Shown: positions 1 to 15,679 of the stretch, piece after piece
Layout of the letters: every line of letters begins with the position of its first letter
Position numbering within the stretch: position 1 is the stretch's first letter
NCBI GenBank assembly: GCA_902812465.1
Contig: CADDZE010000013.1
Span: 1-64,000, forward strand
Direction: 5' to 3'
Length of the DNA: 64,000 bases
Source: Acidobacteriota bacterium
Lineage (GTDB): Bacteria > Acidobacteriota > Terriglobia > UBA7540
The notes under the pieces: generated by a model
The model's database searches: none
The model's input: only the letters and a program-made list of their open reading frames with translations
What the model was told of the DNA's origin: nothing
Made by a program: the position numbers and the translations under genes

Positions 1-396
1 GCATGCTTGGAAGAATGAGCTTTTGCCTACCCAGTGTATCTCAGCCGCGATTCCCGGCAAACCATAGCATGCGCTGGAAGTTCTGGAGGAAAAGCATGAG
101 TGTATCTCAGCCGCGATTCCCGGCAAACCATAGCTGGAATACTGGTAAGCGTAGACAAATCCAAGTGTATCTCAGCCGCGATTCCCGGCAAACCATAGCG
201 ACCGCGTGGAATTGTTCCCCACAAACCAGAGTGTATCTCAGCCGCGATTCCCGGCAAACCATAGCCGTTTGGGAACGTCGCGTTTCGAGCCTTGAAGTGT
301 ATCTCAGCCGCGATTCCCGGCAAACCATAGCCGGCGGGCACATCGACGGGGAGCTGCTTGAGTGTATCTCAGCCGCGATTCCCGGCAAACCATAGC
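1..396. CRISPR. CRISPR array, right-hand end (36-bp repeats, 29-30-bp spacers)
   Basis: Six identical 36-bp repeats start at 33, 99, 164, 230, 296 and 361 (each begins AGTGTATCTC and ends AAACCATAGC). The five spacers between them are 30, 29, 30, 30 and 29 bp and unrelated to each other. Bases 1-2 (GC) match the last two bases of a repeat and are followed by a 30-bp spacer (3-32), so the array continues past the left edge. A 36/30 geometry is typical of type II arrays. The likely transcribed strand is minus, because there the repeat reads GCTATGGTTTG...ATACACT, the nearby anti-repeat pairs with the repeat's 5' 25 nt, and a promoter-like pair of hexamers lies in each repeat. No cas gene is in the window, so the subtype is inferred. 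Confidence 0.95.
361..388 (-). promoter_or_regulatory. Possible promoter inside the repeat unit (leader-proximal copy)
   Basis: On the minus strand the repeat holds TTGCCG (4 of 6 to TTGACA), 16 bp, then TACACT (4 of 6 to TATAAT, keeping the key T, A and final T). TACACT is the last six bases of the repeat, so transcription would begin inside the next spacer. Neisseria type II-C arrays carry a promoter in each repeat in the same place. The same pair occurs in all six copies. This is pattern matching only. Confidence 0.35.
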
Positions 397-467
397 GCCA
401 TAGCGCCACAACGGGGCAACACATCTAAAGCTAGACTTAGGCGCTATGGTTTGCCGGGAATCGCGGC
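397..467 (-). ncRNA. Candidate tracrRNA: anti-repeat plus following hairpin
   Basis: Bases 443-467 are an exact 25-nt reverse complement of the CRISPR repeat, 46 bp beyond the last repeat and inverted to it. If the array is read on the minus strand, RNA from 467 leftwards begins with an anti-repeat that pairs with the first 25 nt of the crRNA repeat, the part that tracrRNA binds in type II systems. Directly after it a short hairpin forms (TCTA, loop GCTT, TAGA; plus-strand 424-435), followed by AGATGTG, reminiscent of the nexus of the Neisseria tracrRNA. No clear terminator follows; the RNA would run into the array. A decayed inverted repeat copy, or a tracrRNA read on plus, are alternatives. 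Confidence 0.45.
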
Positions 468-569
468 GGTTTGACCATGCCAGAGCATCGGCCTATACTG
501 TCCTCTGACAGCAGGACAATCAACGCTGCGTCGGGGCGAGGAGCCGCCGGGCAGGGAAGCAAGGTGTGT

Positions 570-1085
570 ATGGCAAATATCTTTCGTGGAATCGCTGCGT
601 CTACCGCAGCCATTGTCAAGGGCTTCTCGGTAACGCTCCGCAACATGTTGCGCCCGACGGTTACGGAAAACTACCCGGATGAGCCAGTTCACTTCGAGGA
701 CCGCTACCGCGGGGTCCACGTCCTACGGCGTGACGAGAACGGGCTGGAGAAGTGCGTGGCCTGTTTCCTGTGCGCGGCCGCCTGCCCTTCAAACTGCATC
801 TACATTGAGGCTGCGGAAAATACCGGCGAGCAGCGCATCAGTGCGGCCGAGCGCTATGCCAAGGTCTACAACATTGATTACAACCGCTGCATCTTCTGTG
901 GCTATTGCGTAGAGGCTTGCCCTTGCGACGCCATCACTCACGGGCAGGGCTTCGAGATCGCCGCCTACGACACCAACGCGCTCGTCTATCGCAAGGAGCA
1001 GCTGCTCGAGCCCGCTCCCTCACGGCCCGAACCTAAGACAGCACCCCCTCCTCCGGTCGCGGGCGAGTCCCTCCTGCGGATCTAA
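570..1085 (+). CDS. nuoI: NADH-quinone oxidoreductase subunit I (NuoI), orphan
   Basis: 171-residue 2x[4Fe-4S] ferredoxin-type subunit, which passes electrons between the peripheral iron-sulfur chain and the quinone site of complex I. Two cluster motifs are visible: CVACFLCAAACP near residue 68 and CIFCGYCVEACP near residue 107, the classical CxxCxxCxxxCP pairs. The amphipathic N-terminus and the length fit the family. The ATG at 570 is chosen because GCAAGG lies a few bases upstream and the protein then starts like other NuoI. A longer frame starts at TTG 471 but would overlap the anti-repeat. No other nuo gene flanks it, so it is a stand-alone copy. The C-terminal tail is Pro-rich. Confidence 0.9.
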   Translation: MANIFRGIAASTAAIVKGFSVTLRNMLRPTVTENYPDEPVHFEDRYRGVHVLRRDENGLEKCVACFLCAAACPSNCIYIEAAENTGEQRISAAERYAKVYNIDYNRCIFCGYCVEACPCDAITHGQGFEIAAYDTNALVYRKEQLLEPAPSRPEPKTAPPPPVAGESLLRI

Positions 1086-2982: not shown

Positions 2983-3747
2983 ATGAGTCACAAGGAACAG
3001 ATGGGACTACGCGTCGTGCTGCTAGGGTCGCTCGTGCCGGCGCTATGGGCGGCTGTGCGGGCTAGGAATCCCGTATCCAGGCAGTCAAGCGCCAGCTTTC
3101 CGGCTTCGCCAAGAGCGTGCCAGCTCCACGGACGGGCATGGCCGCGTGCTACTACTGAATCGCCGGGCCGAAGCTATCCTCAACGAGAACGCGGAATCGC
3201 GCTGCGTAAGGGCAGGCTTACTGCAGTAGATTCCTCCGACGCGCGACGCTTACGGCTACTGCTTCGCTCAGCCACCCTTGCTGACCTTGCTCCGGGCATC
3301 GCAGGCATCGACACGATGGCCCTCCAGCACGATGAAACCTCCAAGCCCCTCTATTTAACCATCATGCCAGCACGCGGCAGAGACGTACCAAGCCGGGGCC
3401 GGCCAGGCGCACTTGTGTTCATTTCCGACCCGGCCACCGAACCGGCCTCGCGCATGCCTTTATTATCCCGGCTCTTTGGTCTAACTCCGGCCGAATGCCG
3501 CCTCGCGGCTCTCCTACTGCAGAATGTCGAACTCCGCGCCGCGGCACAACACATGCACGTAACGACTGGCACCGCGCGCTTTATGCTGAAGAGCATTTTT
3601 TACAAGACACACTGCCACCGTCAAGCAGAACTGATCCGGCTCGTGAGCATGATTCCCGGCATCCCGCCACAACCGAAAAGCTCTTCCACAAAGCCTGACG
3701 AGGCCGATCCGAACGCCAAGCTGGATGCCCCAGGCGCTGCTTCCTAG
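2983..3747 (+). pseudogene. LuxR-type HTH regulator remnant, frameshifted
   Basis: The C-terminal third is a clear LuxR-type helix-turn-helix: FGLTPAECRLAALLLQ, then an atypical recognition region (TTGTARFMLKSIFYKT) and RQAELIRLV. Upstream, a PAS-like strand typical of these regulators (GHGRVLLLNRRAEAILNEN) is in another frame at about 3131-3190, and GIALRKGRLTAVDSSDARRL continues in the frame of the HTH. At least one frameshift near 3190 therefore separates sensor and DNA-binding parts. The annotated 5' end (ATG 2983) is only where the downstream frame opens; its first 50 residues do not look like a LuxR N-terminus. It directly follows the broken lipoprotein, so this stretch seems degraded. 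Confidence 0.6.
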
Positions 3748-4385: not shown

Positions 4386-5606
4386 CTACTCATAGCGCAA
4401 CGCGTCGATTGGGTCGAGGCACGCAGCCTTATGGGCTGGGTAATACCCAAAGAAGACCCCGACCGCTAAGGAGAACATTGTCGCGATCACAATGGCTTCG
4501 GGGGAGACGCGAGTACGCCACTCGAGTATTCTGGAAACCAGGTAGGAACCTAAAACACCGGTTACGACGCCCACCGTCCCTCCCAAGCAGCTTAGCATCA
4601 CAGCTTCGCTGAGGAATTGCATTTGCACATCCTGTTCGGTAGCCCCCACGGCCATGCGCACGCCGATCTCCCGCGTGCGCTCAGTAACCGACACCAGCAT
4701 GATGTTCATGATCCCGATGCCGCCCACTAGCAGAGAAATGGAAGCGATGCTGGCCAGCAGGATGGTCATGATGCGCTGCGACTGTGCCTGAGTCTCGGCG
4801 ATGGCGGCGGGATGGCGCAAGTTAAAGTCGTCAGGCTGATCGGGACGCAGGTGATGGCGCTCGCGGAGCAGAGCCGTGATCTGGCGCTCCGCGGGCACCA
4901 AGGCCTCTGGCGAGACCGCCGAGCACATGATGTCGTCAACCCATGTAATGCCCTTGATCTTTCGCTGCACCGTCGTATAGGGCATGATCAGCACGTCGTC
5001 CTGATCCCCACCAAAGGGTGACTGGCCCTTGGGAGCCAGGACGCCCACGACCAGACAGGGGAGGTTCTTGACCCGAATTGTCTGGCCCACTGGGTCCTGT
5101 TGGCCAAAGAGATTCTCGACCACCGTCCTGCCCAACAGGCAGACGTCGGTAGCCTCCTCCACGTCGTGCTGGAAAAAAGCGCTTCCCGATTCTACAGGCC
5201 AGTGGCGCACCTGGAGATAGGCTGGAGCCACGCCGCGCACGGTGGTATACCAGTTCTGACCCTTATAGACCACCTGGACGCCGGTATCGACATGGGGCGA
5301 CACATTCTGGACCAGAGGAATCTGCTGCTCGATGGCGCGGGCGTCCGACACGGTCAGGCTCTTGGTTCCCCAATTGCCCGTGCGGACACCGTTGACCTGC
5401 CGTCCTCCTGCTTCGATCCAGATCATGTTCTCGCCGAGGTTGCGGATCGATTCCTTCACCTGGTCGGAAGCCCCCTGCCCGATGGCCACCACGCAGATCA
5501 CCGCTCCGACGCCGATGATGATGCCCAGCATAGTGAGCGCCGTCCGGAGCTTGTTGCGGCTCAAGGCAGCGAAAGCGACTCTCAGAATAACGGAGAGGCT
5601 ATTCAC
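4386..5606 (-). CDS. MacB-like ABC transporter permease, distal copy
   Basis: 406-residue FtsX/MacB-type permease: one N-terminal membrane helix (TMLGIIIGVGAVICVVAIG), a large periplasmic MacB_PCD domain, then three C-terminal helices. The second helix region has LLVGGIGIMNIMLVSVTERT and REIGVRMAVGAT, the family signature. It ends with the usual DPIDALRYE. The start is GTG 5606, preceded by AAGGA at a good distance; the frame stays open to 5687 but those residues do not match the family. It is a tandem paralogue of the next gene upstream (5712-6929), with near-identical C-terminal cores. It is the last gene of the sigma/MacAB unit. It probably exports a lipophilic or peptide substrate with the ATPase and MacA-like adaptor; the substrate is unknown. 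Confidence 0.88.
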   Translation of the reverse strand: MNSLSVILRVAFAALSRNKLRTALTMLGIIIGVGAVICVVAIGQGASDQVKESIRNLGENMIWIEAGGRQVNGVRTGNWGTKSLTVSDARAIEQQIPLVQNVSPHVDTGVQVVYKGQNWYTTVRGVAPAYLQVRHWPVESGSAFFQHDVEEATDVCLLGRTVVENLFGQQDPVGQTIRVKNLPCLVVGVLAPKGQSPFGGDQDDVLIMPYTTVQRKIKGITWVDDIMCSAVSPEALVPAERQITALLRERHHLRPDQPDDFNLRHPAAIAETQAQSQRIMTILLASIASISLLVGGIGIMNIMLVSVTERTREIGVRMAVGATEQDVQMQFLSEAVMLSCLGGTVGVVTGVLGSYLVSRILEWRTRVSPEAIVIATMFSLAVGVFFGYYPAHKAACLDPIDALRYE

Positions 5607-5711: not shown

Positions 5712-6929
5712 TCACTCGTACCGCAAGGCTTCGATGGGGTCGAGACGCGCAGCCTTGCGTGCGGGATAGTAGCCGAAGAAGATGCCTACCGCGGCGGCAA
5801 ACAAGACCGCAATGGCGATCGATGAGGGTGGCACCAGCGTCGGCCAGTTGAGCATGTTGGACACCACCATCGAGCCAAAGACCCCGGCCACCACCCCCAC
5901 CAGACCGCCGAGCATGCTCAGCACCATGGCTTCGCTCAGGAACTGCATCTGTACGTCTTGTTCGGTAGCTCCCACGGCCATGCGTACACCGATCTCCCGC
6001 GTGCGCTCCGTCACGGATACCAGCATAATGTTCATGATTCCGATGCCGCCTACCAGCAAGGACACGGAGGCGATGCTGGCCAGCAAGAGCGTCATGATGC
6101 GCCCGGACTGGGCCTGAGCTTCCGCCAGGTCGGAGGGGCTGCGAATGATAAAGTCGTCGTCCTCATCAGGGCGCAAATGGTGGCGTTCGCGCAGTAGGCT
6201 CGCGATCTGGACTTCCGCCGGGTGAATGGCCTCCTGCGAGATGGCCGAGCAGATCACGAACTGCAGCCAGTCAATGCCGATGATCTTCTTCTGCACGGTG
6301 GTAAACGGCATGATGATGGTGTCATCCTCATCCTGCCCGAAGGGTGACTGTCCTTTGGAGGCGAGCACGCCAATCACTCGAAACGGCAGGTTTTGGATGC
6401 GTACCGTCTTGCCCACTGGATTTTCCGAGCCAAACAAGTTCTGGACCACCGTGAGCCCTAGCACGCACACATCGGCCGCGGAATCCACTTCGTGCTCGGT
6501 GAAGGCGCTTCCCTCTTGGATCGGCCAGCGGCGGATGCTGAAATATTCCGGGGAAACGCCGCGCAGGTGCGTATACCAGTTCTGGTTACCGTAAACGATT
6601 TGGGCGTTCGATCCCACTCCGGGCGAGACGGCAGCGAGCAGAGGGATCTGCTGCTCCATGGCCTTGGCGTCCCCCAGCCGAAGCGTCTTGGTGGCCGAGC
6701 TTCCCATGTGGACGCCGTGCTGGTTGACGTCGCCGGCGGCGATGAAGATGATGTTGTCACCCAGGTTGCGCAGTGCATCCTGAACCTGATTAGCCGCTCC
6801 CTCGCCGATGGCTACCGTGCAGATGACGGCGCCCACGCCAATGATGATGCCCAGCATGGTCAGGACCGTGCGCATCTTATTGCGCCCCAAGGCTCGGAGC
6901 GCCACCCTAAACACTGCCTGCAGGTCCAT
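5712..6929 (-). CDS. MacB-like ABC transporter permease, proximal copy
   Basis: 405 residues with the same architecture as its downstream paralogue: N-terminal helix (TMLGIIIGVGAVICTVAIG), periplasmic MacB_PCD domain (about 50-240), and C-terminal FtsX-type helices with LLVGGIGIMNIMLVSV. It ends DPIEALRYE. The start ATG 6929 overlaps the stop of the ATPase gene by one base (TGATG), so translation is likely coupled. In MacB proper the ATPase and permease are fused; here they are separate, as in many acidobacterial exporters. Two permease genes with one ATPase suggest a heterodimeric permease, or two exporters sharing an ATPase. Confidence 0.9.
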   Translation of the reverse strand: MDLQAVFRVALRALGRNKMRTVLTMLGIIIGVGAVICTVAIGEGAANQVQDALRNLGDNIIFIAAGDVNQHGVHMGSSATKTLRLGDAKAMEQQIPLLAAVSPGVGSNAQIVYGNQNWYTHLRGVSPEYFSIRRWPIQEGSAFTEHEVDSAADVCVLGLTVVQNLFGSENPVGKTVRIQNLPFRVIGVLASKGQSPFGQDEDDTIIMPFTTVQKKIIGIDWLQFVICSAISQEAIHPAEVQIASLLRERHHLRPDEDDDFIIRSPSDLAEAQAQSGRIMTLLLASIASVSLLVGGIGIMNIMLVSVTERTREIGVRMAVGATEQDVQMQFLSEAMVLSMLGGLVGVVAGVFGSMVVSNMLNWPTLVPPSSIAIAVLFAAAVGIFFGYYPARKAARLDPIEALRYE

Positions 6930-7768
6930 CAGGCCTCCTCGTCCTCGGACTCATCCTCATCCTCGTCCAGGCCCACCGGCGGCATCGTGCGGAGCACGTC
7001 GGCAGCATAGACGCGGTCGTCCACCAGGGTGTCCTTTCTCACCTTGCCGTCGCGAAAGAGCACGATACGCTTGGCAAAGCGGGCGATATCCGGTTCGTGG
7101 GTCACCAGCAGGACCGTGAGTTTGCGCTCCTCATTGAGGCGCTGGAAGATTTCCATGATCTCAACGCTGGTTCGGCTGTCCAGGTTGCCAGTAGGTTCGT
7201 CAGCCAGGAGCAGCGAAGGATGGTTGACCAAAGCCCTTGCGATAGCCACGCGTTGCTGCTGCCCGCCGGAAAGCTGCGAAGGATGATGATTTTCGCGGCC
7301 CTCCAGGCCGACTTCACGCAGAGCCTCACGCGCGCGGCGGATGCGCTCTTCGTGCGGCACGGAGCAGTAGATGAGGGGTAGCTCGACATTTTCGAGAGCC
7401 GAAGTGCGGGGCAGCAGATTGAAGCCTTGAAAGACGAAGCCGATCTTCTGATTGCGAATGTGCGCCAGTTCCCGCTTGGAAAGCCGCGAGACGTCCTGGC
7501 CATCCAAGCGATAGGTACCCTTGGTTGGGCGGTCAAGACAGCCAATCAGGTTCATGAAGGTTGACTTGCCTGACCCGGAGGCCCCCATGATCGCCACAAA
7601 TTCGCCTCGGGCGACCGACAACGAAACCCCACGCAGCGCGTGCACCTGCACTTCACCGAGGTCATAGATACGGTGAAGGTGCTCGACCTCGATCACTGGC
7701 ACGGAGTCTACCCCATCCGCCGCGCTCCTGCTTCCTAATTCTTCCGTTGACAATGTCTGTTCCGTCAT
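6929..7768 (-). CDS. ABC transporter ATP-binding protein (MacB/LolD type) with acidic tail
   Basis: 279 residues. Walker A is GASGSGKST, the Q-loop region FVFQGFNLL, the signature [15 protein letters not shown], Walker [13 protein letters not shown] and the H-loop VTHEP. These mark the LolD/MacB/FtsE class. The start ATG 7768 has a good GGGAG site upstream; the frame is open to 8038 but overlaps the macA-like gene there. The C-terminus after 260 is very acidic ([14 protein letters not shown]), which is unusual for the family. It sits between the adaptor (7846-9243) and the first permease and powers both permeases by inference. Confidence 0.93.
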
Positions 7769-13150: not shown

Positions 13151-15679
13151 TCACTTGGCAACCACGCTGACCAGCTTCTTGGGCACCACAATGACCTTGA
13201 CCACACTCAGCCCGTTAAGATGCTGGGCGACGGAGTGCAAGGCCTGGCGTTGGATCTCTTCGTCGGAGCTCGCCGCCCGCACGCGGATCCGCCCGCGCAG
13301 CTTCCCGTTCACTTGCACCGGAATCTCCAGCTCGTCTTCGGCGGCAAGCACTGGATCGTAGGCCGGCCACCGGGTTCGCAGCAAGGGCTGATCATGGCCC
13401 AGCGATTCCCAAAGCTCATCGGCCAGGTGCGGCGCAAACAGCGAGAGCATCTGCACGAACATTTCGATGGCCGCCTTGAGCACAGTCGGGCGCACCCGTC
13501 CTTGGTCAATCGCACCCTCCCGTTCGCTCAAATCGTTCACGAATTCCATGAGCAGGGCGACGTCCGTGTTGAAGTGCCAGCGCTCCTCCATATCCTCCGT
13601 GATGTGGCGGAGTACCTGGTGCGCCTTCCGCAGCAGGTGCCGCTCTTCCGGCCCCAGGTCACTCCCGGGGTCTGGCGCGCCGGTCGCCTGCAAGCGGCGA
13701 GCATGGCGGGCGACGAGGCGGTAGGCACGCCCCAGGAACCGCCACGCTCCCTCGATGCCCGCGTCGCTCCACTCGAGGTCTTTCTCCGGCGGGGCCACGA
13801 ACAGCATGTAAAGCCGCAACGTGTCAGCACCGTACTTGTTGCACATGTCGGTCGGGTCGACGACGTTGCCCTTGGACTTCGACATTTTCGCCCCGTCCTT
13901 GATCACCATGCCTTGGGTGAAGAGCCGGGCGACGGGTTCGGAAAAGTTAACCAGGCCGATATCCTGCATCACCTTGGTGAAGAAGCGCATGTAGATGAGG
14001 TGCAGGATGGCATGCTCGATACCGCCAATGTACTGGTCCACCGGAAACCAGTACTGGACCGCATCGCGGTTAATAGGAGCGGTCGCGATCTGGTTGTCGG
14101 TATAGCGATAAAAATACCAGGACGAGTCGACGAAGGTGTCCATCGTGTCCGTCTCGCGCCGCGCCGCGCCCCCACACCGGGGACAGGTCGTGTTCACGAA
14201 CTCCGGCACCGACGCCAGCGGCGACTGGCCTTCGCCGGTCAGCCTCACGTTTGGCGGCAAGACGACGGGTAGGTCTTTTTCCGGCACCGGCACAATGCCG
14301 CACCCCGGGCAATAGATGATGGGAATCGGCGTACCCCAGTACCGCTGCCGCGAAATACCCCAGTCCTTCAGACGATACTGCACGCTTCGCTTCCCGAAGC
14401 CTTGCGCCTCCGCATCGCTTATCATGCGCTCGATGGCCTGCTCGGAAGTCAGCCCCGTGTAGGGCCCCGAGTTCACCAGCCTGCCGTAATCGACAAACGC
14501 CTCCTCCGCCAGCGCTTGCGGGCCACCGGTTTCGCCCGAGGTCTCCCCGGGGCTGCTGCCCGGTGAGCCACCCGAGCTCAGCGGGACGATCACGGTGCGC
14601 AGGGGGAGTCCGTAGGCTTGGCAAAACTCGAAGTCGCGCTGGTCGTGCGCGGGAACAGCCATCACGGCGCCGGTGCCATATTCCATGAGCACGAAGTTCG
14701 CGATCCAGACGGGCACCTCCTCGCCGTTGAACGGATTGCGCGCGGTAAACCCCGTCGCGATGCCCTCCTTCTTCAAGTTGACTTCGACGCGGGCGCGCAC
14801 TGCCGAATTCTTGATGCGCTCGGCCTCCGCCGCAAGCTTCTCCGGTGAGCTCGAACGGGCAACCAGCTTGGCCACGATGGGGTGCTCGGGCGCCAGGAAT
14901 AGCGCCGTGCAGCCATAAATGGTGTCGATACGCGTGGTGAAGATGCGCACCCCCTCGCCCAGCTGAGGAATCAGGAAGTCCACCAAGGCGCCGGCGGACT
15001 TGCCGATCCAGTTGCGCTGCATCGTTAGCACGCGCTCGGGCCAGCGCACCAGCTCCTTCATCTCGTCGAGCAGCCGCTCGGCGTAGGCGGTGATCCGCCA
15101 AAACCACTGCTCGAGTTCGCGTTCCCTGACCGGCGTATCTTCGTGGCGCCAGCAACAGCCGTCCACCACTTGTTCGTTGGCCAGCACGGTTTGGCACTTA
15201 GGGCACCAATTGACGCGGCTCTTCTTGCGGTAGGCGAGGCCGCGCTCGTACATCTTCAGGAAGAACCATTGGTTCCACCGGTAATACTCTGGCAGGCAGG
15301 TGGTCACTTCGCGGCGCCAGTCGTAGCTGACGCCCAGGCGCTGAAACTGCTGCTTCATCCGCGCAATGTTCGCGAAGGTAAACTCGGAGGGGTGCCGCTG
15401 GTGTTTGATGGCAGCATTCTCCGCCGGCAGCCCGAAAGCATCCCAGCCGATCGGGTGCAGCACGTTGTAGCCCCGCATCCACTTGTAGCGGGCCAGCGCG
15501 TCGCCGATCATGTAATTGCGCACGTGGCCCACGTGGAGCTCGCCCGAAGGATAGGGCAGCATCTCCAGCACGTAGTACTTCTTGCGCGCCAGGTCGGCTT
15601 CCGCTTCAAACAGCTTCTGCTCGGCCCAGCGCTTCTGCCACTTAGCCTCAATTGCCTGCGGATTATATTCAGGATCCAT
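13151..15679 (-). CDS. leuS: Leucyl-tRNA synthetase
   Basis: 842 residues; charges tRNA-Leu. The class I HIGH motif appears as [15 protein letters not shown] and KMSKS as [15 protein letters not shown] zinc-like motif ([14 protein letters not shown]) and the CP1 editing domain lie between them. The start ATG 15679 gives [15 protein letters not shown], typical of the family. A low-complexity insert rich in Ser, Gly, Pro and Glu (about 14520-14585, in the editing domain near [11 protein letters not shown]) is unusual; the rest is standard. Confidence 0.97.

Follow-up and report, generated by a model that had tools for sequence, protein, structure and literature searches.

The array and the inverted repeat copy beside it

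The window, which is the whole stretch of 64,000 nucleotides analysed here from an acidobacterial genome assembly, opens with a CRISPR array (Table 1). The array is truncated at base 1 of contig C13, and its leader and cas side lies off the contig, beyond position 1 of the window. The repeats are located at 33-68, 99-134, 164-199, 230-265, 296-331, and 361-396, and read GCTATGGTTTGCCGGGAATCGCGGCTGAGATACACT on the crRNA strand. These coordinates agree with the initial annotation, which reported six 36-nt repeats separated by spacers of 29-30 nt. No further copy of the repeat was found outside the array in the same assembly, with up to three mismatches allowed. The five spacers showed no exact 20-nt match in IMG/VR. 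Together with the partial spacer they showed no match in INPHARED, and no protospacer was found among the collected loci.

An exact inverted piece of the repeat, 25 nt long and 46 nt past the last repeat, and a small TCTA/TAGA hairpin had been pointed out in this flank. Both are present, the hairpin at 424-435 inside the interval. It was also correct that the crRNA strand is the minus strand and that the piece is complementary to nt 1-25 of the crRNA repeat; the duplex is calculated at -55.8 kcal/mol. Against the nearest repeat the arms extend to 28 nt (372-399 and 440-467), with 440-442 added. The minus-strand RNA was folded as had been suggested, and its energy was -69.5 kcal/mol compared with -34.2 for shuffles, 11 SD lower. 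An exact 25-mer would be expected about 1e-10 times by chance in 64 kb. Together, these two values exclude chance for the match at 443-467. The sequence facts on the copy and the array are thus firm. No terminator was found at 443-467 or the array end, and no minus-strand promoter was found upstream of the array in the window.

Table 1. Coordinates of the array, its flank, and related solitary repeats
Feature	Sequence	Position	Strand	Remark
Partial spacer, truncated by contig start	Window	1..32	minus	Window position 1 is base 1 of contig C13
Type II-C CRISPR array	Window	33..396	minus	Six identical 36-nt repeats; orientation from relatives and own tracrRNA
Extra repeat: oldest, first-transcribed	Window	361..396	minus	Identical to the other five, unmutated
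46-nt interval	Window	397..442	minus	The 25-30 nt nearest the array would serve as guide in an extraneous crRNA
Cis anti-repeat, inverted copy of repeat nt 1-25	Window	443..467	minus	25/25 against the repeat reverse complement
Sigma-70-like promoter, directed away from the array to the ferredoxin-like gene	Window	471..499	plus	Consensus match only
4Fe-4S dicluster ferredoxin gene, outside the CRISPR system	Window	570..1085	plus	Transcription directed away from the array
Solitary repeat L132	UViG_3300035099_000117	3644-3679	minus	Between predicted genes
Solitary repeat L133	UViG_3300017988_000011	7627-7662	minus	
Solitary repeat L134	UViG_3300033977_000098	6911-6946	minus	Between predicted genes

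Cas9, the true tracrRNA, and the orientation of the array

The system is type II-C. The profile search of the same genome detected the N-terminus of Cas9 at the end of another contig (C11:69983-70570, E 8e-90), a fragment which PADLOC also calls Cas9. The initial annotation had proposed type II, to be abandoned if the genome contained no Cas9 gene. This fragment, in the same assembly, and the Cas9 and type II Cas1 proteins of relatives bear the proposal out. An HNH_4 match on contig C16 was dropped as a Cas9 candidate, because the Cas9 profile search of the genome yielded the C11 fragment only. The search of the genome with the Pfam model RuvC_III gave no match, and it is uninformative because the controls were silent too. 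No cas1 was found in the assembly, where the stretch expected to carry it is missing. As the Cas9 N-terminus and the tracrRNA described below are on C11, the gap between C11 and C13 most likely holds the remaining cas9, cas1, cas2, the leader, and the newest part of the array. The linkage of C11 and C13 is presumptive, because the remainder of the locus is absent from the assembly.

Cas9 scored above the curated cut-off in 15 of 396 Acidobacteriota genomes. The expectation that Cas9 would be uncommon holds for the phylum, but not for the family to which the genome of the window belongs. Variants of the repeat are present in 12 of 39 genomes of the same family. The named public relatives by Cas9 are Acidobacteria MAGs, including one Candidatus Acidiferrales. 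Five relatives with the same repeat family have a full or nearly full Cas9. The array adjoins both Cas9 and type II Cas1 in L027, L030, and L034, which were tested for both, and Cas9 is also found beside the array in L033 and L037. The cas1 beside cas9 is of the NMENI type. On one contig, the order is tracrRNA, divergent from cas9-cas1-[leader-array-trailer].

The flank is conserved among the relatives only at the crRNA 3' end, where an inverted-repeat region (CCCCCGGA...TCCGGGGG) faces cas1. At the crRNA 5' end the sequence varies, and in several relatives the repeats there are decayed or altered; L027 and L032 have decayed ones. Judged in these relatives, as the leader of the array itself is off the contig, the leader and acquisition end is at the crRNA 3' end. 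In type II-C systems, spacers are acquired at the 3' end and promoters are present in the repeats (PMC12638026). The copy at 443-467 therefore lies at the old end of the array, which is the 5' end of the pre-crRNA.

A complete tracrRNA is encoded at C11:69804-69930 on the minus strand, upstream of and divergent from cas9. It consists of a bulged anti-repeat, a nexus, a terminator, and a T-rich tail, and aligns with the tracrRNAs of eight other loci. The consensus structure includes ten pairs with changes on both sides, and the C11 sequence scores 104 bits with a model built excluding the genome of the window. Searches of the tracrRNA and the end regions with Rfam found no family except a tRNA.

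The initial annotation had taken 443-467 itself for the tracrRNA of this system. Its complementarity to the crRNA repeat, on the right strand, is the property it shares with tracrRNA anti-repeats. Unlike those, it has no bulge, and neither nexus, terminator, nor poly-U accompanies it. The tracrRNA models R1 and R2 do not match it on the minus strand; they match the array repeats weakly on the plus strand, trivially. It is only 46 nt away from the array and at the trailer end, far from the cas and leader side, while the full tracrRNA adjoins cas9 in the same genome. It is therefore very improbable that 443-467 is the tracrRNA, and this assignment was rejected.

A search for anti-repeats close to an array may mistake such a cis copy for the tracrRNA proper. 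Inverted terminal repeats have been proposed as raw material for the origin of tracrRNA.

Inverted copies in other type II-C arrays and solitary repeats

The survey of type II-C arrays covered 56 arrays, 52 of them with usable flank, and mononucleotide shuffles of the flank served as comparison. Four rows (L061, L071, L079, and L090) are invalid as the array runs to the contig end, and inverted pieces on the leader side in L054 and L087 were not counted. Upstream of the array, the longest exact match to repeat nt 1-25 is 25 nt in the window, 22 nt in L030, and 13 nt in L119. Elsewhere among the ~52 usable arrays it is 4-11 nt, reaching 11 in L111 and at most 10 in the others. The inverted copies of the window, L030, and L119 all start at repeat position 1. 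Two other II-C arrays share the architecture of the window.

The unit in L030 consists of a repeat with nt 1-22 inverted where they stand, then the direct TGCTGAGATACACA and a 30-nt spacer. Such a flip is a plausible origin of the inverted copy. The array of L119, from Alpha proteobacterium AAP81b, has an 18-bp hairpin with a 3-nt loop at its old end (15330-15405). It is composed of the first repeat and its inverted copy, ~50 nt past a co-directional gene. The exact inverted-plus-direct pattern was not found in a collection of 84,980 species, in which the genome of the window itself may not be included. Within the order, two of 40 genomes have it, G000 and G038. The inverted copy is absent from most relatives, including G029 and G033, whose repeat is identical.

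The position of the copy near the contig start, its perfect arms, and its short loop are what an assembly or library chimera, a snap-back artefact near a contig end, could leave. However, the contig runs on into unrelated genes, not back through the array, and similar end structures are present in the independent assembly G038 and in the public isolate genome L119. A chimera is hardly credible.

The copy can also be interpreted as a neutral relic, a functionless by-product of array-end decay, left by template switching at a quasi-palindrome or by an old repeat that was inverted in place. The chance of this is considerable, although below even. Array ends decay anyway (PMC12080349), and the in-place flip in L030 fits such a process, as does the rarity of the copy in the species collection and the order. 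The arms of the window and L119 run 3-5 nt beyond the repeat boundary, as expected of snap-back copying. On the other hand, the copies match their own, differing repeats perfectly (25/25 and 22/22), start exactly at the first repeat position, and span the tracrRNA-binding part in three lineages.

Shorter or differently placed inverted pieces were observed in other arrays. An inverted 11-nt stretch from the start of the repeat lies just upstream of the array in the Bacteroidetes L111 (Polaribacter) and L101 (Flavobacterium). This stretch may belong to a tracrRNA or form a shorter hairpin with the extra repeat. The leader side of the II-C array in L054 bears an inverted copy of the other repeat end (AGATCCAGTACATT) at 14470-14525, which creates a hairpin where new spacers are acquired.

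Some bacterial genomes contain solitary repeats that belong to the repeat family of the window: L036 (G028:C78, ~948-983), L029 (G033:C18, ~81771-81806), and L035 (G021:C295:15704-15739). One of the three is mutated. They could be decayed arrays, contig-end arrays, or solitary repeats of prophages. The contig of L036 also bears a second, different array at 4779-5098 with the repeat GTCGCCCCGCAGAGTAACGCGGGGCGCGGATTGAAAC, type I-C-like by resemblance only.

On each of three IMG/VR viral contigs there is one full-length 36-nt solitary repeat of this II-C family, and the three differ in sequence (Table 1). No array surrounds them in the contig stretches examined, and phage-type genes are present beside them. 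A CGCGGCC-AAAA-GGCCGCG hairpin comes after the repeat of L134. Following the reasoning of PMC10651486, these viral repeats are candidate RNA anti-CRISPRs (Racr) against acidobacterial II-C Cas9.

Possible silencing of the extra repeat

In II-C arrays, the extra repeat is the first and oldest repeat (PMC12080349). In the window, where the cas side of the array appears to have been lost at the contig break, the first repeat would be this extra repeat and would yield only a useless extraneous crRNA. An inversion or a template switch at the end of the array probably gave rise to the inverted copy of repeat nt 1-25. Were transcription to enter from upstream, the copy would fold onto the intact extra repeat over 28 bp and hide the nucleotides that tracrRNA would bind. 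Production of the extraneous crRNA would then be blocked, to the possible benefit of the system.

Cofolding is consistent with such competition. In the window, 25 nt of the extra repeat pair with the upstream copy and only 9 nt with the genome's own tracrRNA; in L030, the values are 23 nt and 9 nt. The internal repeats of both arrays pair with the tracrRNA. The upstream copy is thus predicted in silico to outcompete tracrRNA for the first 25 nt of the extra repeat. Against a role of the copy, the interval 397-442 also folds into a weak hairpin in the would-be guide, and such a hairpin is itself a known silencing route.

The surrounding genes differ in direction. In the window, the array lies behind the adjacent gene, which is transcribed in the opposite direction, and the upstream sequence showed no promoter on the minus strand; there may therefore be hardly any transcription of the extra repeat. 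Read-through is plausible in L030 and L119, where the gene upstream is oriented towards the array. The gene pointing away in the window and the two relatives that have the same repeat without the copy make a neutral relic almost as probable as a functional hairpin. For the functional hairpin, the chance is close to even that the inverted copy, at the old (trailer) end of a II-C array, silences the extraneous crRNA in the manner of the II-A leader-repeat hairpin.

Known II-C silencing routes are a mutated extra repeat, a terminator, and a hairpin in the guide, and about one quarter of II-C systems have no known means to stop extraneous crRNA (PMC12080349). Three natural examples of an inverted copy would partly fill this gap. 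More generally, II-C arrays might silence the extra repeat via an inverted copy at the old end, as a fourth II-C route, convergent with the II-A hairpin and independent in several lineages. This generalization is tentative and rather doubtful.

The locus resembles other type II-C CRISPR-Cas9 systems in repeat and spacer length, the promoter-like repeat end TACACT, acquisition at the 3' end, the tracrRNA divergent from cas9, and the Cas9 and type II Cas1 of its relatives. What sets it apart is the copy of repeat nt 1-25 that stands inverted at its old end. In II-A systems, a leader-repeat hairpin blocks extraneous crRNA (Liao 2022, as described in PMC12080349 and PMC13187072), and type VI systems show the same (PMC13187072). 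The likeness lies in the pairing of an upstream sequence with the extra repeat, for which tracrRNA would then have to compete. The window differs in that the system is II-C, the oldest and not the newest spacer is concerned, the pairing partner is a perfect repeat copy and not the leader, and the hairpin is predicted only. With the II-C silencing routes, the predicted hairpin shares the place and the presumed purpose, but the survey of more than 650 II-C systems reported no hairpin between upstream sequence and extra repeat (PMC12080349).
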